From Chloroflexota bacterium (GTDB taxonomy: Bacteria > Chloroflexota > Anaerolineae > Anaerolineales > Villigracilaceae), in NCBI GenBank assembly GCA_016208355.1, contig JACQYE010000085.1:1-44643 (forward strand): 44,643 nucleotides of DNA, in the 5' to 3' direction. The translations under genes were made by a program, and so were the position numbers. The notes below the pieces were generated by a model. It made no database searches, was not told the DNA's origin, and was given only the letters and a program-made list of their open reading frames with translations. Positions 19,850 through 37,895 of the stretch are shown piece after piece; the stretch's first letter is position 1, and every line of letters starts with the position of its first letter.

Positions 19850-20104
19850 ATGAGCATCGTGATTGAGTCCTATTTGACCGAACAGAGGCTTAAAGACGCA
19901 CTCCAGCAACTCTTCAGTAATGGCTGGCTCGGCGGGCAAGTCGCTCTACCAGATTCTCGCCGCCGGTTCGATATGGCCTTCCGCTCAAACGGGCTGTTAC
20001 TACCGATAAGCGAACTGGCCAGGAGGGCCGGAAGAAAAGCGGGGCACGCTTATCAAAAGGGGAATTATTGCCGTTCAGCCCAGATGAAACTTTCCGTACG
20101 CTGA
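19850..20104 (+). CDS. Short ORF, probable N-terminal fragment of an unknown gene
   Basis: This 84-codon frame has a GAGG ribosome site before its ATG. Residues 1-48 (MSIVIESYLTEQRLKDALQQ, LFSNGWLGGQVALPDSRRRF, DMAFRSNG) look like a folded domain start. After SNG the composition changes to a basic, low-information tail (RRAGRKAGHAYQKG) that overlaps the start of the next gene by 37 nt. It may be a remnant of a longer gene truncated by deletion, or a small gene translationally coupled to the regulator. It was not recognised. Confidence 0.4.
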   Translation: MSIVIESYLTEQRLKDALQQLFSNGWLGGQVALPDSRRRFDMAFRSNGLLLPISELARRAGRKAGHAYQKGNYCRSAQMKLSVR

Positions 20105-23100
20105 TTGAAAATTTATACGAAGTTGTCTTTACACTTGATGTTCAAGGGAAATTCATCTATATCAGCCCGATGATTGAGCAGGTTTCCGGCTATCAGGTCG
20201 AGGAGGTCATTGGTAAGTCTTTTGATCACTTTGTCCACCCAGACGACCTGCCCGGGCTGCGGGAAAGTTTCAAACACACCCTGACCGGGGCGCGCCAGCC
20301 GGCAGAATTCCGCATCCTGGACAAGCACGGGGAAATTCATTACGTACACACATCCAGCCGGGCCTTGATGCGGAACGGGGAAATTATCAGTGTAACAGGC
20401 GTCCTGTCAGACATGACCGAGAGCAAACACTCTGAGGACGCCTTGCGCCAGGCGGAAGAAAAATATCGGAACATGGTGGAGTGGATTCCGGCAGCAGTCT
20501 ACACCGATGCTGTAGACGAATTCAGCAGCACCCTCTTCATTAGCCCGCAAATCGAAAAATTGACCGGCTATCCGCAAGAAAAGTGGATAGGAGATCCTAA
20601 TTTCTGGCTCAGCATTGTCCACCCAAAGGACCGCTCAGCCGCAAAGAAGGAAAACGACCGGACAAACCGGACGGGGGATCCCTTCCAGATGGAGTACCGC
20701 ATCATTGCGCGTGACGGGCGTGAGGTCTGGATACGGGACGAATCGGCATTGTTACGGGATGCCAATGGAAAGCCGTTGTGCTGGCAAGGCGTCATGCTGG
20801 ATATAACCGAGAGGAAAAAAGCCGAGCAGTCGCGCCTGGATGCTGAGAACGAGCTGCGCGAGAGTGAGGAAAGATACCGCCGGATGGTCGAGTTATCTCC
20901 GGAGGCGATTGCCATTCATAGCGAGGGCAGGCTGGTCTTTGCCAACCCGGCCGCGATGAAATTGATTGGCGCTCAAAGCGCTGAGGATGTCATTGGGATG
21001 CCAATCGCCAATTTCGTTCATCCCGATTCGCGTGAACTGGCTGCCAGACGTATTAAGGAGGCTCTCGCCCAGCAGAAAGCCTTGCCAGCCGCGGAAGAAA
21101 AATTTATCAAACTGGATGGCAGCGTAATAGACGTTGAAGTGGCGACCATGCCATTCCCATATCAAGGAAAAGCTGCTCTCCAGGTGTTAATCAGGGAGAT
21201 TACAGAACGCAAGCAGTCAGATGCGCTTCAGGAGGCAGTGTACCAGATTGCCATTGCAACCGAGACCACCAAATCCTTGAATGACCTTTTCCCGCGCATT
21301 CACCAAATTATCTCTTCGGTGATGCCCGCTGAAAATTTCTATATTACTCTTTACGATGAAACAGGGAACTTCCTGCTCTTTCCTTATTTCAAAGATGCTG
21401 TGGACGAGCCTTATCTGGGCAAACTCCAACCCGGGAAGGGACTGACTGCATATGTCCTGAGAACTGGCAGATCCCTGCTCTGTACGCAGGCAGTCCATGA
21501 TGAACTGGAGCGACAGGGTGCAGTGGAACTGCTGGGCGTCCCTTCCGCGATTTGGTTGGGGGTTCCGTTGATAATCGAGGGGAAGACCATCGGCGCAATG
21601 GTCGTTCAACACTATTCCGACCCAAAGGCATACGGCGAACGGGAACAGCACATGCTGGAATTCGTCTCGTCGCAAGTAGCCACTGCGATTACCCGCAAGC
21701 AGGCAGAAGAAGCACTCGCAAACAGCGAAGCCAGTTATCGCGGCCTTTTTAACAGTGTGATGGAAGCCATCTACATCCAAGATCGGGATGGTCGTTTCCT
21801 GGATGTCAATGACGGCGCAGTCAAGATGTACGGCTATCCGCGTGAAGAACTCGTTGGGAAAACTCCCGTGGACGTGAGCGCGCCGGGCAAAAATGACCTG
21901 GCAGCCGTCAAGAAAATGGTCGAACAGGCCTTCCAGGGAAAGCCACAGCGGTTCGAGTTCTGGGGTAAACGAAGCAATGGCGAGATATTCCCAAAGGATG
22001 TGCGCGTTAGCAAGGGCAAATATTTTGGGCAGGATGTCGTTATCGCAGTCGCGCAAGATATCACCGAGCGCAAAAAGGCCGAGGATGCGCTCCAAAGACA
22101 ACTAAAGGAATTGACCATCCTGCAAGCCGTAGCCCTGGCTGGGACTGAAGCCATTCTGATAGACAGCCTGCTTGAGCGTGTGACAAAGGTGATTGTTGAT
22201 AATTTCTCTCTGGAAAGTTTTGGCGTTATGCTTTATGACAACCGGAAGAAAGTGCTGCGTACCCACTCCTCCTACTATGGGAAACAAAAAGATCAAGCCC
22301 CCGATTTTATCCCGCTTGGCCAGGGCGTGACCGGGCATGTCGCCGCGACCGGGATCCCGTACAGGGTTGGCGATGTCCGCAAGGAAAAACGATATATTGC
22401 CATAACGCCGGGGATGAGGTCGGAAGTCTGTGTGCCAATCAAGGCAGGGGATGATTTGCTTGGAATCATCAATGCGGAAAGCCGTTCCCTGAATTCTTTC
22501 AGCGCAGAAGACGAACGATTGTTCGTGACCATTGCCGGGTCTCTGGCTACCACCATCCAAAAATTGCGCTTGTTCGAGGCGGAACATTCCCGCCGCCAGG
22601 AAGCCGAGACATTGCGACAGGCCGTCGCAACTGTTTCCTCTTCGCTGGAATTAAATGATGTTTTGGACACTATTCTGGCTTCCTTGAGCAAAGTGGTGGC
22701 CTACGATAGTGCTTCCGTGATCCTTGAGCGAGAAAGCACGGGCGAACTGGAAATTGTTGCCGGGCGCGGCTTGCCTGAAGGGCATGACATCATCGGGAAA
22801 CGTTTCACGAAAACTGAAAAATGGCAGCAACTGGTTGATACCCACAGATCGCTTATTATGGGGGATGCCCAGGCTGACCCGCGCTTCGAAATGTGGGAAG
22901 GGACGCAATATATCCGCGGCTGGATGGCAGTTCCGTTAGTCGTCCGCGATAATGTGATTGGCTATATTTCATTGGACAGCCGCCGACCCAACACTTATAC
23001 CGAAGAAACGGCTGCTCTTGCGCAAACATTCGCGTACCCGGCTGCTATTGCCGTTGAGAACGCCCGCCTGTATGAATCCGAGCAGCGCCGCCGCCAGGAA

Positions 23101-26100
23101 GCCGAGACGTTACGCCAGGCAGCCACAGCCGTTTCTTCTTCACTTGATCTCCGTCAGGTGCTCGATACCATTCTCATCTCTCTGAAACGGGTGGTTCCTT
23201 ACGACAGCGCCAGTGTCATGCTGCTGGAAGGCGAGCGTTTGCGTGTGGTCGCTGTGCAGGGCTTTGCCGACCCGGAACAGGTTATCAATCAAACTTTCCC
23301 CGCCAAAGATAAACTGTTCAGTGAAACCCAGCGAATGAAGGGACCCATCATCCTGGAGGATGCCAGGGAGGATCGGCGTTTCCAGCGCTGGGCCGGAACT
23401 GATTTTGTGCGCGGTTGGATGGGCGTCCCTTTGATCGCACGTGGTACCGTCATCGGTTACATCACGCTCGATAATCATGAACCCGTCACGTATGATGACG
23501 AGAGCGCTGCCTTGGTGCAAGCCTTCGCGAACCAGGCTGCGACCGCGATTGATAATGCCCGTCTCTATGAGGCTGAACAGCGCCGCCGAAAGGAAGCCGA
23601 GACCCTGCGCCAGGTGGCCCAGGTGGTAAGCGCAAGCCTGGATGTTGATGAGGTGTTCAGGTTGATGCTGGAACAACTCAAGCATGTATTGACCTTCGAT
23701 ACCGCCTCAGTACTCCTGCTGGGGGAAACCGGACAACCGGACCTTGTCACCGGTATGGATTACGCAGATGAAAAAACGACCATCCGGGCGGCTCATGAAC
23801 TACTGCAAGACAGCCCGATTCTGAAGCAGATGGCAGAAGACCTCAAACCGCTGACCATTGCCGACGTACGCGAACACCCTGGGTGGATCTGGGTGCCTGG
23901 CGCCGAACATGTGCGCTCATTCCTCGCGGTACCAATCATTGCCCGCCAGAAGATGATTGGCGCGCTCATGGCCGATAGTGTCTCCACCGGCTTCTTCACC
24001 GACGATGAAGTGCGCGTGGCTCAGTCACTGGCGCAGCACATGGCAATCGCCGTCGAAAACGCCCGCCTGTTCGAATCGGAGCAGCGCCGCCGCCAGGAGG
24101 CAGAAACCCTGCGGGAAGCGGTCTCCGCAGTCGCTTCCACCTTGGATCCCAAACAATCCATACAACTCATCCTCGAACAACTGGAGCGGGTTGTGGCCTA
24201 TGATAGTGCCTCCGTCCAAATCTATCGGGATGGTTACCTGGAAATCGTTGGCGGGAGAGGCTGGCCCCACCCGGAAAGTGTCCTGCAGACGCGTTTCCCT
24301 GTGCCAGGGAAGAACCCCAATTCGGTTGTCATCCAGAAACGGAAACCTCTGATTTTAGGGAACGCGCCCGAACAATACCCTCCTTTCAAGGAAGAACCGC
24401 ACCAGCACATCAAATCCTGGTTGGGCGTACCGTTAATTGCCAAGAACGAGGTGATTGGGATGCTGGCAGTAGACAGCATCCATGAAAACCATTTCAACGA
24501 GGAAAGCGCCCGTCTTGCAGTCTTGTTTGCCAGCCAGGTTGCGTCCACATTGGAAAACACACGGCTTTATGAACAAGCCCTGCAAGCCGCCGAAAGGCGT
24601 GCTGTCCTGCACCATGCAAGCCAGGAAATTGCGCGTACCACCCTCAACCCGGAACAAGTCTATGAGGCTGTTCACCGGGCCGCCGAACGTTTGATGCCCG
24701 CAGAAGCATTCGTGATTTCACTGCTGGATGAAACAAGTAATGAAATCCTTGCCGCCTATTTGTACGATAAAGGCGGACGCTGGCCGGCTACCCGTTCCCC
24801 GGCAAATGTCGGTTTATCAGGTGAAGTAATCGCGAGTGGAAAGGCAATCATTGTTCGCGATTTGTCTAGCGAACCATTGTCCAACAGCATCCATTTTGGG
24901 GAGCAGGAGGAAGTCAGGTCAATCCTGGCAGTCCCCATGCGGTTGGGGGATAAAGTCATCGGCATGTTATCCGCCCAATCCTACCAGCCTCATACCTATA
25001 CCGAAGAAGATCAGTCACTGCTCGAAATGCTCTCCGCCCACGCCGCAGTAGCGATTGAAAATGCACGCCTGTACAACGAGACCCGCCAGCGATTGACAGA
25101 ACTGGAAATGGTCAACCGCATTTCCACCACCCTGCGGGAAGCGCAGACTGTTTCGGAGATGCTCCCCAAACTTCTGGACGAGACTCTCAGCGTTCTTCTA
25201 TCGGACGCAGGTGCAATCTGGCTGTACGATTCATCCAGGCATGTTTTGAAAGAAGCAATCTCACGCGGTTGGTTTGCCGGAATCAATGAGTGGCCCATCG
25301 CGCCGGGCGAGGGGATTGCCGGCACAGTTTTCCAGTCCGGGCAGGTTTTCATCTCGAAAGAATTTGCCGCTGATCCGGCGACGCGCGCCAGCGCGCGCGA
25401 CCTGATCCCTGCCGGTTGGGGAGGCGCGTGTGTGCCCATCCGCACCCTCCAGGAGACCATTGGCGTACTGTTCTTTGCCGTCCAATTACCGCGCCAGATA
25501 CTACCCGAAGAAGTCCATCTGCTCACCACACTCAGTGAGATTGCTGGCAACGCCATCCGCCGCGCCGACCTTTATCACCAGACTCAGCGCCAGGTTCAGC
25601 GCCTGGCCTCCCTGCGCGCCATTGACTTGGCCATTAACACCATCCTTGATCTGCGCGTCACCCTGGGTATTTTGATTGATCATATCCTTTCCCAACTAAA
25701 AGTGGATGCCGTTGACGTGCTCCTTCTCAACCCCCGCACGCAGACCCTCTATCACGGGGCCAGTTCCGGCTTCCGCACTGACGCGGTCAATTACTGGCAG
25801 GTACACATCGGCGACGATATTGCCGGGAAATCGGTGCGGACGCGGAACACAATTTTCATCCAAAACATCCGGGAAAACACCCAGTCCAAGCGATTGTTTG
25901 GACTGACAAACGAACATTTCGAATCTTATTTCTGCGTCCCTCTGATTGCCAAGGGTCAGGTAAAAGGTGTGATGGAAATCTTCCACCGCTCTGCCCTGGA
26001 CCCGGACGCAGACTGGAAAGGCTTCCTGGAAACCCTGGCCGGGCAGGCCGCCATTGCCATTGATAATTCTGTATTGTTCGAGGATCTTCAAAAGAGCAAC

Positions 26101-26676
26101 GTGGACCTGGCCCTCGCCTACGATGCCACCATCGAGGGCTGGTCGAAAGCGCTCGACCTGCGCGACCGTGAAACGGAAGGCCACACACAGCGGGTGACTG
26201 AACTGACCCTTCAATTAGCACATCTAATGGGCGTCAGCGACCCCGACCAGGTCCACATCCGGCGCGGGGCGCTCCTGCACGATATCGGCAAGATGGGAGT
26301 CCCCGACAATATCCTGCACAAGGCCGGGGCATTGACCGAAAAAGAATGGCAGGTGATGCACCGTCACCCGGTCTTCGCGTATGAAATGCTCTACCCAATC
26401 GCCTACCTGCGTCCGGCCGTGGATATTCCTTATAGCCATCACGAACGCTGGAACGGCAAGGGCTATCCACGCGGATTGCACGGGGAGGAGATTCCCCTGG
26501 CGGCCCGACTGTTCGCCGTGGTGGATGTATGGGACGCGCTGATATCCGACCGCCCCTACCGCAAGGCATGGACAAAAAAGGCAGCGACAAAATTCATTCG
26601 GGATAACAGCGGCATCCTGTTCGATCCCGCCATCGCAGAAGTATTCCTGACCCTGCTCAAGGGAGAGGAAAAGTAA
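20068..26676 (+). CDS. Giant multi-PAS/multi-GAF HD-GYP signalling protein
   Basis: This 2202-residue cytoplasmic protein has no membrane segment. Domains in order (approximate residues): PAS 5-125, PAS 130-255, PAS 270-385, GAF 389-550, PAS 551-671, then eight GAF domains of about 165 residues each (677-836, 836-1001, 1002-1166, 1167-1333, 1335-1501, 1501-1669, 1669-1836, 1836-2004), and a C-terminal HD-GYP domain from about 2011. The HD-GYP is complete: EGHTQRVTEL, LLHDIGKMGVPD (His2071, Asp2072) and HHERWNGKGYP (from His2124), so cyclic-di-GMP hydrolysis is plausible. Several GAF units are joined by near-identical helical linkers (EQRRRQEAETLR). The start is a TTG at 20068 after AAAAGGGGA; no suitable ATG lies nearby. 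Ligands of the GAF domains are unknown. Confidence 0.9.
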   Translation: MPFSPDETFRTLIENLYEVVFTLDVQGKFIYISPMIEQVSGYQVEEVIGKSFDHFVHPDDLPGLRESFKHTLTGARQPAEFRILDKHGEIHYVHTSSRALMRNGEIISVTGVLSDMTESKHSEDALRQAEEKYRNMVEWIPAAVYTDAVDEFSSTLFISPQIEKLTGYPQEKWIGDPNFWLSIVHPKDRSAAKKENDRTNRTGDPFQMEYRIIARDGREVWIRDESALLRDANGKPLCWQGVMLDITERKKAEQSRLDAENELRESEERYRRMVELSPEAIAIHSEGRLVFANPAAMKLIGAQSAEDVIGMPIANFVHPDSRELAARRIKEALAQQKALPAAEEKFIKLDGSVIDVEVATMPFPYQGKAALQVLIREITERKQSDALQEAVYQIAIATETTKSLNDLFPRIHQIISSVMPAENFYITLYDETGNFLLFPYFKDAVDEPYLGKLQPGKGLTAYVLRTGRSLLCTQAVHDELERQGAVELLGVPSAIWLGVPLIIEGKTIGAMVVQHYSDPKAYGEREQHMLEFVSSQVATAITRKQAEEALANSEASYRGLFNSVMEAIYIQDRDGRFLDVNDGAVKMYGYPREELVGKTPVDVSAPGKNDLAAVKKMVEQAFQGKPQRFEFWGKRSNGEIFPKDVRVSKGKYFGQDVVIAVAQDITERKKAEDALQRQLKELTILQAVALAGTEAILIDSLLERVTKVIVDNFSLESFGVMLYDNRKKVLRTHSSYYGKQKDQAPDFIPLGQGVTGHVAATGIPYRVGDVRKEKRYIAITPGMRSEVCVPIKAGDDLLGIINAESRSLNSFSAEDERLFVTIAGSLATTIQKLRLFEAEHSRRQEAETLRQAVATVSSSLELNDVLDTILASLSKVVAYDSASVILERESTGELEIVAGRGLPEGHDIIGKRFTKTEKWQQLVDTHRSLIMGDAQADPRFEMWEGTQYIRGWMAVPLVVRDNVIGYISLDSRRPNTYTEETAALAQTFAYPAAIAVENARLYESEQRRRQEAETLRQAATAVSSSLDLRQVLDTILISLKRVVPYDSASVMLLEGERLRVVAVQGFADPEQVINQTFPAKDKLFSETQRMKGPIILEDAREDRRFQRWAGTDFVRGWMGVPLIARGTVIGYITLDNHEPVTYDDESAALVQAFANQAATAIDNARLYEAEQRRRKEAETLRQVAQVVSASLDVDEVFRLMLEQLKHVLTFDTASVLLLGETGQPDLVTGMDYADEKTTIRAAHELLQDSPILKQMAEDLKPLTIADVREHPGWIWVPGAEHVRSFLAVPIIARQKMIGALMADSVSTGFFTDDEVRVAQSLAQHMAIAVENARLFESEQRRRQEAETLREAVSAVASTLDPKQSIQLILEQLERVVAYDSASVQIYRDGYLEIVGGRGWPHPESVLQTRFPVPGKNPNSVVIQKRKPLILGNAPEQYPPFKEEPHQHIKSWLGVPLIAKNEVIGMLAVDSIHENHFNEESARLAVLFASQVASTLENTRLYEQALQAAERRAVLHHASQEIARTTLNPEQVYEAVHRAAERLMPAEAFVISLLDETSNEILAAYLYDKGGRWPATRSPANVGLSGEVIASGKAIIVRDLSSEPLSNSIHFGEQEEVRSILAVPMRLGDKVIGMLSAQSYQPHTYTEEDQSLLEMLSAHAAVAIENARLYNETRQRLTELEMVNRISTTLREAQTVSEMLPKLLDETLSVLLSDAGAIWLYDSSRHVLKEAISRGWFAGINEWPIAPGEGIAGTVFQSGQVFISKEFAADPATRASARDLIPAGWGGACVPIRTLQETIGVLFFAVQLPRQILPEEVHLLTTLSEIAGNAIRRADLYHQTQRQVQRLASLRAIDLAINTILDLRVTLGILIDHILSQLKVDAVDVLLLNPRTQTLYHGASSGFRTDAVNYWQVHIGDDIAGKSVRTRNTIFIQNIRENTQSKRLFGLTNEHFESYFCVPLIAKGQVKGVMEIFHRSALDPDADWKGFLETLAGQAAIAIDNSVLFEDLQKSNVDLALAYDATIEGWSKALDLRDRETEGHTQRVTELTLQLAHLMGVSDPDQVHIRRGALLHDIGKMGVPDNILHKAGALTEKEWQVMHRHPVFAYEMLYPIAYLRPAVDIPYSHHERWNGKGYPRGLHGEEIPLAARLFAVVDVWDALISDRPYRKAWTKKAATKFIRDNSGILFDPAIAEVFLTLLKGEEK

Positions 26677-33633: not shown

Positions 33634-35262
33634 ATGGAGCCCTATCTCTGGTGGCGCGACGGCATCATCTATCAAATCTATCCGCGTTCCTTTGCAGACA
33701 GCAACAGCGACGGCCTCGGCGACCTGCCCGGCATCGTCTCCAAACTCGATTACCTGGCAGGGCTGGGAATAGATGCCATCTGGCTCTCTCCATTCTATCC
33801 AACCCCCGACAAAGACTCCGGCTACGTCGGCACCCTGGCCGACTTCGACCGGCTGGTGGCGGAAGCCCACCGGCGCGGTATCCGCATCGTGCTGGATATG
33901 GTCATGAACCACACCTCCGACCAACATCCGTGGTTCATCGAATCCCGCTCCAGCCGCCAGAATCCCAAAAGAGATTGGTACATTTGGAAGCCCCCTACCC
34001 CCCTGCCCCCTCCGTCCCTCCGGGACACCTCCCCCATTTCTGAAATCGGAAATGGGGGAGGCCGGGAGGGGGTCCCCAACAACTGGCAAGCCTCCTTCGG
34101 CGGAAAGGCCTGGGAGTACGACCCTGCCACGGGCGAGTATTACCTCCACCTTTTCACCCGGGAACAGCCTGATGTCAACTGGCGCAACCCCGAGGTCCGC
34201 CGGGCGCAGTTGGACGCCTTCCGTTTCTGGCTGAAGCGCGGTGTGGACGGCTTCCGCCTGGACGTGTTCAATGCCTACTTCAAGCACGCTGATTTCCCAA
34301 ACAACCCCCCGAAACTCGGCTTGCGCGCCTTCGACCGCCAAAAACATATCTTTGATATTGACCAGCCGGAAATGATGCCCCTGCTGAATGAACTGCGCCT
34401 CCTGCTGGATTCCTACCCGGAGCGCTACGCTGTCGGAGAGACTTATTTCGCCACCCCGGAGAAAACCGTTTCGTATTGCGGACCCGATAAACTGCATGCC
34501 GCATTCAGCTTCGATTTCACCTCGGCCAATCTTATCTACCCATGGTCGCCCCGCTACATATTGGCGCGCATCGCCGAGAGGGAACGTATCTTCAACGCCG
34601 CCAGCGTCTGGCCGACGACAGTGATGAGCAACCACGATCTCCCCAGGGCCGTCTCCCGTTACATCCCGGGGGAAGACGACCGGATGGCAAAGATCATCAT
34701 GACCCTCCTGCTGACCCTGCGCGGCACGCCTTTTCTGTACCAGGGCGAGGAAATCGGGATGCGCGACATCCCGCTCAAGCGCAGCGAGCTCCTCGACCCA
34801 CCGGGGAAAAAATACTGGCCGATCTACAAAGGCCGCGACGGGTGCCGCTCCCCGATGCAGTGGGACGATAGTCCCAATGCGGGTTTCTCGACGGCACGGA
34901 CCTGGCTGAAGGTGCATCCTGATTTTTGCCACCGCAACGTCGCCGCCCAGCAGGCCGACCCGGATTCGCTCCTGCACTTCACCAAAGCCCTGATCGCCCT
35001 GCGCAAGTCCCATCCTGCCCTGCGCCGCGGGGAATATGTCCCCGTCGCAGCCACCCGGCATGTGCTGGCTTTCCTGCGGAAAAGCGGCGCGGAGACCATC
35101 CTGGTTGCCTTGAATTTCAGCAAAAACGAGAAAATGTTCTCCTTGCCTGCCGAAATCCACCTGGCAGGACGCTTGCTCTCCAGCGAGAAAAATTCCGCCT
35201 CCAACTCGCCGCAGGAAATCCTCCTTGCGCCTTATGAGGCCAGTCTCTGGAAAATAAGGTAG
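33634..35262 (+). CDS. GH13 alpha-glucosidase with a deletion and a repeat insert
   Basis: This 542-residue GH13 enzyme is of the oligo-1,6-/alpha-glucosidase group and hydrolyses short alpha-glucans in the cytoplasm (no signal peptide). The start WWRDGIIYQIYPRSFADSNS, DMVMNHTSD, nucleophile Asp210 (GFRLDVFN), acid/base Glu269 (VGETY) and transition-state Asp335 (SNHDLPR) are all present. Two oddities stand out. At residue 65 the text reads SGYVGTLADF where homologues have about 11 more residues of a GYD..DY.....FGT block, including substrate-contacting Asp and Tyr. Residues 120-147 are an extra proline/glycine-rich stretch encoded by a palindrome at 33990-34077. The gene stays open throughout. 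Whether the enzyme is active is uncertain. Confidence 0.88.
   Translation: MEPYLWWRDGIIYQIYPRSFADSNSDGLGDLPGIVSKLDYLAGLGIDAIWLSPFYPTPDKDSGYVGTLADFDRLVAEAHRRGIRIVLDMVMNHTSDQHPWFIESRSSRQNPKRDWYIWKPPTPLPPPSLRDTSPISEIGNGGGREGVPNNWQASFGGKAWEYDPATGEYYLHLFTREQPDVNWRNPEVRRAQLDAFRFWLKRGVDGFRLDVFNAYFKHADFPNNPPKLGLRAFDRQKHIFDIDQPEMMPLLNELRLLLDSYPERYAVGETYFATPEKTVSYCGPDKLHAAFSFDFTSANLIYPWSPRYILARIAERERIFNAASVWPTTVMSNHDLPRAVSRYIPGEDDRMAKIIMTLLLTLRGTPFLYQGEEIGMRDIPLKRSELLDPPGKKYWPIYKGRDGCRSPMQWDDSPNAGFSTARTWLKVHPDFCHRNVAAQQADPDSLLHFTKALIALRKSHPALRRGEYVPVAATRHVLAFLRKSGAETILVALNFSKNEKMFSLPAEIHLAGRLLSSEKNSASNSPQEILLAPYEASLWKIR
33990..34077. repeat. In-gene palindromic element within the GH13 gene
   Basis: The core arms CTCCCCCATTTC (34029-34040) and GAAATGGGGGAG (34049-34060) are perfect reverse complements with an 8-nt loop. 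Imperfect C-rich and G-rich flanks extend the dyad on both sides. It replaces the usual short W..PNNW loop by about 24 extra residues, in frame. Confidence 0.88.
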
Positions 35263-35649: not shown

Positions 35650-35657
35650 AGCAATTG

Positions 35658-37895
35658 ATGGACTCCTTCGCTTTCCTCCCGGGGGACGAAACCGGAGACT
35701 CCCGCCCTTTGGCGCGCTTCCTGCCGCCGATACCGGGAGGCGTCGGCGCGGCCTTCCTGACCCGCCACGCGGTCTCCGGCGAATGGGTGCTCGACCCCTT
35801 CGGGGCCGCGCCGTCCCTGGCTGTGGAGATGGCGCGCTTTGGGAAGAACGTGCTGGTGGCGGTCAACAACCCTGTCACCCGCTTCCTGCTCGAACTGGCC
35901 GCCACGCCGCCCTCGGTGGAGGAGTTACGCGCCGCGCTTTCGGACCTGGCCGCCACCCGGAAAGGGGAGGAGCGGCTGGAGACCCATCTCCAGTCCCTCT
36001 ACCTGACCGATTGCGCCAAATGCCAGCGCCAGATCCCGGCGGAGGCCTTCATCTGGGAAAAGGGCGCCTCGGTCCCATCTGGCCGCCTGTATCAATGCCC
36101 CTGCGGCGAAAGCGGCGAATTCCCCGCCTCCGAAGCCGACCAGGCGCGCGCCCTCCGCATCGCAGCCACCGACAGCCTGCACCGCGCCCGCGCCCTCGAA
36201 CGCGTCGCCGCGCCTGACGACCCCGACCGCCCCTACGCCGAACAAGCCCTGGAATGTTACCTGCCGCGCGCCGTCTATGCCCTGATCGCCATCGTCAACA
36301 AACTGGACAGTTTCAGCCTCGACCTGCCGAAGGAGCGCCGCCGCGCCCTGCTGGCGCTCGTCCTGGCCGCCTGCGACGAGGCCAGCGCCCTCTGGCCGCA
36401 TCCCACCGAACGGCCCCGGCCAAAGCAATTGGCCGTCCCGCCGCGCTTCCTGGAGAAAAACGTCTGGCTGGCGCTGGAGCGCGCAGTGGAACGCTGGGGC
36501 AGCGAAACGCCCATCCAAACGTCAGATTGGGCAGCCGCTTTCCCGGCCGGGGGCAGTCAGCCGGTCCAGAGTGGAACGGGTGGCGTGTACGTCTTCGAGG
36601 GGCCGGTTCGGCTGCTCGTTCCCGCCCTCAAAGCCATCCCGCCCGCGGCCGTCGTCTCCGCCCTGCCGCGTCCCAATCAGGCTTTCTGGAGCCTCTCGGC
36701 ATTGTGGGCCGGCTGGTTGTGGGGACGCGCGGCCACCGCCCAGTTTAAGTCGGTCCTGCGCCGCCGCCGCTACGACTGGAACTGGCACACCGCCGCCCTG
36801 TACGCCGCACTGAAAAACATCTCTCCGCACCTGCCGCTCAATACCCCGCTCTTCGCCCTGCTCCCCGAACCGGAACCGGCGTTCCTTTCCGCCGCCTTGC
36901 TGGCCGCTGCCGGGGCCGGGTTCGACCTGGACGGGCTGGCCCTGCGCACGCGCGGCGACGCGGTACAAATCGCCTGGCGGCGGCGCGCTTTCCTGCGGGA
37001 CGAAAAAGAACCGCCCGAGATTGACCCGCAGGCAGTGAAGGACGCTCTCGAAGCCTGCCTGGGCTCCCGCGGTGAACCTGTCCCTTACTTGTACCTGCAT
37101 GCCGCCGGTCTCGCGGCCATGGCCGCCGACCGCTCCCTGCGCTGGCGGGAGGAGGCCGTCTCAGCCCTGAATGCCCCGCTCCAGGCCGCCCTGGCCGGCC
37201 CCGGATTCTTCCACCACTCGGAAAGCGACAACGCCGAGACCGGCCTGTGGGGACTTTCCGACTGGGACGCCATCGAGACCCTGCCCGACAAGGTGGAAAT
37301 TGCCCTCATCCACTACCTGCAAAAGAATCCCGGCGCGGCTTTCCGCGACCTGGAAATTGCCCTGAACGCCGAGTTTCCCGGGCTGCTTACCCCTTCGCTG
37401 GGAATGTTGCGCGCCGTCCTGGCCTCCTATGCCGAGGAAAATGACGGAGGCTGGACCCTGCGTCCGGAGGACGCTCCCAATGCCCGCCGCGCCGACCTGG
37501 ACTCTGCAGTGCAAACCCTGACCACTCTCGCCCCGCAACTGGGATATGCCGCAGCCAGTGAGCAAAAACCCTGGCGCATCCTGCGCTGGCTGGAAGCAGG
37601 TCAAACTGCGTACGCATTCCATATTGTTGCCTCGGCGGTGGCGGGAAAAATCCTGCGCGCGGCTTCCGAGCCACCCGAGCGCTGCGTGCTCGTCCTGCCT
37701 GGCGGGCGCGCCGGACTGCTGGCTTACAAACTGGACCGGGACCCCGATCTCAGGCTTCGCGCCGAACGTTGGCGGGTGCTGAAATTCCGCCAGTTGCGCC
37801 GCATTGCAGGATTGCCCGGCCTGACGCGCGAGCGTTGGGAGAAGGAACTCTCCAGCGACCCACTGGAGCCACCGGAGCAGATGAAACTGTTCTAG
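35658..37895 (+). CDS. Methyltransferase-like orphan protein with a zinc-ribbon-like motif
   Basis: This 745-residue protein opens with a Rossmann-type SAM-binding pattern: PGGVGAAFLTRHAVSGEWVL then DPFGAAPSLAVEMARFGKNV, like motif I (DPF.G) of DNA amino-methyltransferases. A possible zinc ribbon follows at about residues 118-152 (DCAKCQRQIP and YQCPCG). The position expected for the catalytic DPPY has ALPRPNQAFWSLSALWAGWL instead, so methylation may be lost or changed. The last 300 residues are not assigned. They include EIALIHYLQKNPGAAFRDLE, possibly a winged helix, and CVLVLPGGRAGLLAYKLDRD near the end, possibly nuclease-like. The start could be the ATG used here or a TTG one codon earlier. 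No partner gene is obvious. Confidence 0.7.
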   Translation: MDSFAFLPGDETGDSRPLARFLPPIPGGVGAAFLTRHAVSGEWVLDPFGAAPSLAVEMARFGKNVLVAVNNPVTRFLLELAATPPSVEELRAALSDLAATRKGEERLETHLQSLYLTDCAKCQRQIPAEAFIWEKGASVPSGRLYQCPCGESGEFPASEADQARALRIAATDSLHRARALERVAAPDDPDRPYAEQALECYLPRAVYALIAIVNKLDSFSLDLPKERRRALLALVLAACDEASALWPHPTERPRPKQLAVPPRFLEKNVWLALERAVERWGSETPIQTSDWAAAFPAGGSQPVQSGTGGVYVFEGPVRLLVPALKAIPPAAVVSALPRPNQAFWSLSALWAGWLWGRAATAQFKSVLRRRRYDWNWHTAALYAALKNISPHLPLNTPLFALLPEPEPAFLSAALLAAAGAGFDLDGLALRTRGDAVQIAWRRRAFLRDEKEPPEIDPQAVKDALEACLGSRGEPVPYLYLHAAGLAAMAADRSLRWREEAVSALNAPLQAALAGPGFFHHSESDNAETGLWGLSDWDAIETLPDKVEIALIHYLQKNPGAAFRDLEIALNAEFPGLLTPSLGMLRAVLASYAEENDGGWTLRPEDAPNARRADLDSAVQTLTTLAPQLGYAAASEQKPWRILRWLEAGQTAYAFHIVASAVAGKILRAASEPPERCVLVLPGGRAGLLAYKLDRDPDLRLRAERWRVLKFRQLRRIAGLPGLTRERWEKELSSDPLEPPEQMKLF

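Follow-up and report, generated by a model that had tools for sequence, protein, structure and literature searches.

What does a protein do that starts like a DNA methyltransferase, carries ALPR where the catalytic motif is expected, and then continues for several hundred residues? The question is raised by one gene in a 44,643-nucleotide stretch of Chloroflexota DNA (hereafter, the window). The open frame runs over 35655-37895 (+), and translation from the in-frame ATG at 35658 gives a protein of 745 aa, whose M1 is kept in orthologues. The original prediction, read from the letters alone, had described a DPFGA start, a CxxC...CxC ribbon and ALPR in place of the catalytic motif, and all three were confirmed, at residues 45-50 (LDPFGA in the window translation), 119-149 and 335-338, respectively. 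The gene and the features of its methyltransferase-like half are as follows.

35658..37895 (+), complete coding sequence from the ATG, 745 aa; full-length orthologues share both ends
35673..36992 (+), Rossmann methyltransferase-like domain, residues 6-445 (AF2, VIA, hhalign)
35787..35828 (+), degenerate motif I, residues 44-57 (column counts in 102 orthologues; active relatives)
35847..35873 (+), motif II, residues 64-72, with the acid after strand 2 replaced
35907..36557 (+), insert after strand 2, residues 84-300, at the position of a target-recognition domain (model secondary structure; position in BrxXI, PMC12839542)
36012..36104 (+), four-cysteine zinc ribbon, residues 119-149 (orthologue cysteine counts)
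36654..36785 (+), pseudo-active-site block PRPNQAFWxLSALWxGWLWG ... RRRYDWxW, residues 333-376 (column identity)
36660..36671 (+), ALPR at the motif IV position, residues 335-338 (hhalign; orthologue columns)

Profile and sequence libraries revealed little when searched with the window protein. Pfam gave no match up to E 5, DUF1156 (PF06634) included, the NCBIfam and PDB sequence searches with this protein alone gave nothing usable, and all that PADLOC returned was weak likeness to Type II methyltransferases at residues 21-109 (E 0.003). Weak ClpXP/SspB matches at residues 565-611 were read as chance. No account of the 745-aa protein family was found in the literature on Chloroflexota pseudo-methyltransferases, and neither of the two family libraries searched, Pfam and NCBIfam, offered a model for the conserved core family that the protein represents.

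Structure was more informative. The AF2 model of the window protein, built on an alignment of 30 homologues, reached a pLDDT of 89.8, and VIA matched residues 6-444 to SAM-dependent methyltransferases, i.e., Trm14 with Z 13.6, 177 aligned residues and an rmsd of 2.9. These matches came from VIA-align; Foldseek against the PDB gave no match below 0.001 for this model or for that of the sister protein L144. The single match below 0.001 in the viral BFVD collection, a Pandoravirus N4-cytosine methyltransferase (E 9e-5), was put down to general methyltransferase likeness. Comparison by hhalign with a profile of methyltransferases that keep DPPY or DPPH covered residues 15-430 (Prob 98.6, E 1.4e-15) and placed the ALPRPN of the window lineage on the catalytic motif (VVSALPRPNQAFWSLSALWAGWLWG vs YIFTDPPHGNRIPYLELSLMWNSWL). 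Sister lineages point the same way, as their profile A3 matches RsrI and TTHA0409 (E about 1e-5) and a match to the PglXI profile spanning residues 157-426 was obtained with the sister protein L133 (E 1.2e-8). The window protein has both the Rossmann fold and the order of the alpha-class amino DNA methyltransferases, i.e., motif I, insert at the target-recognition position, motif IV. Judged by model and profile alignment, residues 1-445 are a methyltransferase fold.

The insert also has a counterpart among known enzymes. In Type-3 BREX BrxXI, a large insert with a four-cysteine zinc motif lies between strands 2 and 3 (PMC12839542), and the window protein has such a zinc motif in its own post-strand-2 insert. 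Its cysteines, C119xxC122 and C147xC149, are kept in 101-102/102 orthologues; many of these have CPxC at the second pair, of which the CxC of the window protein is a one-residue contraction.

The residues required for catalysis are gone, and in a consistent way. In motif I, LDPFGAAPSL replaces DPFxGxGTT, with both later glycines changed to A/F and P across the 102 orthologues. The motif II acid position is V69 in the window protein and A/V/S/T in orthologues, and the D is present in the comparison sequences L113, L114, L132 and L133; the alpha-class combination of FxGxG and a motif II acid is thus absent from the window protein. Motif IV of that class, [DNS]PP[YFW], is likewise missing, since ALPR stands there with P337-R338 fixed. 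The consensus over the 102 orthologues is [SA][LVI]PRPN, and an acid at position 335 occurs in only one of them (L131, DPPRPDGVFW, an early branch). With P337 in 102/102 and R338 in 101/102, ALPR instead of DPPY is no chance event. The intact adenine-methylation motifs of BrxXI/PglXI are not found in the window protein, and the pattern of replacements strongly suggests that SAM binding and methyl transfer were lost in its lineage.

The surroundings of the lost motif are nonetheless the most conserved main region of the protein. Over residues 305-380, 30% of columns reach at least 97% identity, vs 6-25% in other main segments, and W344, W353, R369, W374 and W376 are each invariant (102/102). 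Because this region is the most conserved despite the motif loss, the pseudo-active site appears, from the alignment, to have been rebuilt rather than merely abandoned. The catalytically altered modification enzyme that had been proposed is borne out to this extent: the fold is that of a methyltransferase, with motifs I, II and IV degenerate and fixed in that state in the lineage.

The C-terminal residues, described earlier as unassigned, proved assignable, partly by homology to sister proteins.

36993..37262 (+), helical region, residues 446-535 (model secondary structure)
37281..37460 (+), probable winged helix, residues 542-601, helix-helix-helix-strand-strand (model secondary structure)
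37476..37808 (+), probable degenerate PD-(D/E)XK-like domain, residues 607-717 (homology to the sister domain; element order)
37578..37628 (+), positions of the sister D..E-x-E, residues 641, 655 and 657 (alignments, column counts)

When the whole phylum was searched, other Chloroflexota classes turned out to have longer homologues, of about 730-1020 aa. The profiles of the window lineage and of these sisters align over their full length (Prob 100, E 2e-74), and the Anaerolineae copies form one clade (support 100/100). The window C-terminus matches the sister-lineage domain by hhalign with Prob 99 and E 5.6e-18, and in the AF2 model residues 607-717 run helix-strand-strand-strand-helix-strand, as in that domain. 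In the last 190 residues of the sister lineages a D is invariant and an E-x-E nearly constant. The model of the C-terminal domain of L144 (pLDDT 85.5) matched the BspD6I small subunit first, with a modest Z of 8.2 over 144 aligned residues (rmsd 4.0), and then Nt.BspD6I, FokI, HindIII, EcoT38I, Can2 and Hjc, so that most matches belong to one superfamily, the PD-(D/E)XK nucleases. The corresponding positions in the window protein are I641, H655 and V657; the commonest residues in orthologues are L, Y and L, with no acids among the common ones, and the catalytic pattern of the superfamily, D...(D/E)xK or ExE, is absent from the window protein. The probable make-up of its C-terminal part is a winged helix and, after it, a nuclease-like domain of degenerate PD-(D/E)XK type; sister-lineage homology and the order of modeled secondary structure elements are the grounds for this fold assignment. 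A link between the winged-helix region and the C-terminus of the active methyltransferase L114, seen weakly in one BLASTP comparison (E 1e-4), was not recovered by hhalign and was set aside.

To establish how widespread the gene is, the protein was searched for in 61 whole genomes, every one from the order of the window gene, Anaerolineales. A homologue was present in 52/61 (40/48 of the genomes of good quality), mostly as one full-length copy, colinear along the chain and with 37-73% identity. A scan of GTDB contigs yielded 269 loci, and the MAG titles of the best 80 of these name Chloroflexota, mostly Anaerolineales or Anaerolineae. In other orders of the same class, the gene was found in 1/9 sampled genomes, which leaves it uncertain how long it has been a core gene beyond the Anaerolineales. 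Within the genus, dN/dS values of 0.14-0.27 indicate purifying selection. No relative of the 745-aa protein was found in the phage records and viral contigs searched, and the plasmid search returned only generic DNA methyltransferases (E about 1e-3). The patchy, mobile distribution and the partner genes of anti-phage and R-M systems were not observed. On these comparisons, the gene is best described as a vertically inherited, non-mobile part of the chromosomal core of the order. The label orphan, given to it at the outset, holds in that no partner gene adjoins it, but the gene is a conserved core component and not an oddity. This vertical inheritance and the probable C-terminal nuclease-like domain are additions to what had been read from the sequence earlier.

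By Pfam, the window gene has an alpha-amylase upstream and DUF2085 and DUF4126 membrane proteins downstream, and its other neighbors are DUF5362 and DUF4190 proteins and two-component genes; no R-M or specificity gene was found beside it, in keeping with the original prediction, which had noted the lack of a neighboring nuclease or specificity gene. BREX, R-M and DUF499 genes were likewise not seen next to the gene, either in the window or in the 80 loci, and the neighbors do not include the PglZ and BrxC partners of BrxXI/PglXI. Across the 80 loci, the recurrent neighbors, named by sequence reading, were a divergent histidine kinase family, a glycosyltransferase, a CAP-domain lipoprotein directly downstream (54/80) and SSB several genes upstream, and were read as housekeeping proteins. 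In other classes, the gene directly upstream encodes a TPR-like protein, and a PolX-like gene is found a few positions beyond it, again named by sequence reading. Neighbors common to all classes were sought and rejected, as there is almost no overlap with the Anaerolineales block. Since the two sets share hardly any neighbors, the context names no single process.

Several further observations were made in the window and in related genomes. The alpha-amylase frame (33634-35262) contains an in-frame, C-rich palindromic insert of ~27 codons at 33994-34073 (+), with an inverted repeat at 34028-34061; at least four further contigs of the window's own genome hold related copies, and this dispersed element inside a coding frame recalls the palindromic elements of Rickettsia. 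A 2202-codon open frame (20068-26676, +) lies directly downstream of three tRNA genes. Two ~1000-aa frames in related genomes, L111:844-3981 (-) and L112:242-3247 (-), combine a domain like that of DNA methyltransferases, its motif IV altered (TEPPF, SSAPS), with a PyrK-like domain, i.e., the dihydroorotate-dehydrogenase-B iron-sulfur domain (PF10418). In most Anaerolineales genomes searched the best PF01555 match is an N6_N4 methyltransferase of ~360-400 aa, located at G000:C80:2476-3141 in the genome of the window, and this is possibly a conserved active orphan methyltransferase of the order.

We consider it probable that the 745-aa protein is a pseudoenzyme that descends from a single-chain R-M-like fusion and has been retained, chromosomally encoded, to bind nucleic acids as a scaffold or regulator. 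Homology, motif loss, conservation and vertical core status are supported by sequence and structure comparison. The ancestor would have carried, after a BrxXI/PglXI-like methyltransferase, a helical part, a probable winged helix and a nuclease-like domain of the PD-(D/E)XK type, and was presumably catalytically active. The window lineage has lost the residues needed to bind SAM, transfer the methyl group and cleave DNA, with the fold, the zinc ribbon and the rebuilt pocket PRPNQAFW...RRRYDWxW held under strong selection. The present protein would then neither methylate nor cut. The domain types suggest that it binds DNA via the zinc ribbon and the winged helix, and its role in the cell may be a housekeeping one. 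A DNA-binding sensor, as the original prediction offered, is possible and close to this reading.

Other explanations give the same features a different weight. The rebuilt pocket might serve an altered but working enzyme, with another reaction or another cofactor, and the pseudo-active site with P337, W344, W353, R369, W374 and W376 in 102/102 orthologues is what such an enzyme would show; however, a conserved pocket is equally expected of a binding site, the 102 orthologues have lost the glycines of the SAM site and the acid of motif II, and the motif IV D has no acidic substitute, which makes this explanation unlikely. The pocket could also be non-catalytic in the manner of METTL14, a precedent for an inactive partner subunit (PMC5023411), with the protein binding substrate for a separate active methyltransferase in the same cell. 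N6_N4 methyltransferases are indeed found in 41/41 genomes searched, with the one of ~360-400 aa the best match in most, but active methyltransferases also occur in genomes where the gene was not found (G005, G018, G045, G046 and G050). A partner next door was considered and rejected, as no active methyltransferase adjoins the gene in the window or the 80 loci, and we regard a partnership of this kind as quite unlikely.

The self-contained defence protein suggested earlier found no support, because the gene is conserved, mostly single-copy and without a match in the phage records and viral contigs searched. In its more specific form, an anti-phage reader or decoy of methylation built from BREX or R-M parts, it draws on the nearest profile families, which are defence methyltransferases (PglXI, MTase_II), and on the inactive REase domains of BREX-type helicases (PMC12839542). 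A gene that is colinear and near-universal in its order, within a conserved, housekeeping-like context, argues against it, as do plasmid matches that are generic; given this distribution, a defence role is very unlikely.

R-M parts are usually viewed as mobile, quickly lost defence genes, and here they are apparently vertical across an order. The steps of decay may still be visible. Sister motif IV is varied (RPPY in L133, SPPG in L132, and SPPP, QPP, EAP or QAP elsewhere), and together with the DPPR of L131 the first two are possible intermediates, by alignment, on the way to LPRPN, as E-x-E went to none. With this family, the conversion of a defence enzyme into a housekeeping protein, kept under strong selection after loss of both catalytic sites, would become open to experiment. 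A more tentative proposal, which we would put forward as possible only, is that the whole order relies, for a chromosomal core protein, on a domesticated and doubly inactivated R-M fusion, whose former base-flipping pocket, PRPNQAFW...RRRYDWxW, is a new specific binding or catalytic site. The protein would in that case be a housekeeping factor of a novel type, acting on DNA or RNA and known to date from Chloroflexota alone.

Type IIG/IIC restriction enzymes have methyltransferase and PD-(D/E)XK-like domains in a single chain. The window protein would likewise unite both domain types in one chain, but with the methyltransferase at the N-terminal end and the nuclease-like domain at the C-terminal end, and its lineage has lost both catalytic sites. 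BrxXI (PglXI) of Type-3 BREX is similar in its Rossmann methyltransferase and its insert with a zinc motif, and it has HTH-like domains after the methyltransferase part (PMC12839542); where BrxXI/PglXI has three of these, the model of the window protein shows the helices of residues 446-535 and the probable winged helix of 542-601. It differs from BrxXI/PglXI in the absence of DPPY, in its degenerate SAM motifs, in its probable extra C-terminal PD-(D/E)XK-like domain and in its setting, i.e., a core gene with no BREX/DUF499 neighbors seen, not a defence-island gene. The BREX-related DUF1156 methyltransferases are set apart by their N-terminal domain (PF06634), which has no match in the window protein and a weak one in L113, a relative with active motifs.

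For each half of the protein, retention without catalysis has a parallel. METTL14 has EPPL for DPPW, does not bind SAM and plays a structural and substrate-binding role (PMC5023411); it resembles the window protein in its degenerate motif IV and in a conserved non-catalytic role, putative in our case, but is of a different lineage and acts as a heterodimer partner. The nuclease-like domain of RecC and the N-terminal domain of RPB5 have the PD-(D/E)XK fold in inactivated form and retain it to handle DNA or make protein contacts (PMC1185551). Those domains reside in other host proteins; here, a dead methyltransferase and a probable nuclease-like domain, equally dead, would share one chain. By analogy, METTL14 on the one hand and RecC and RPB5 on the other are precedents for keeping each half without catalysis.
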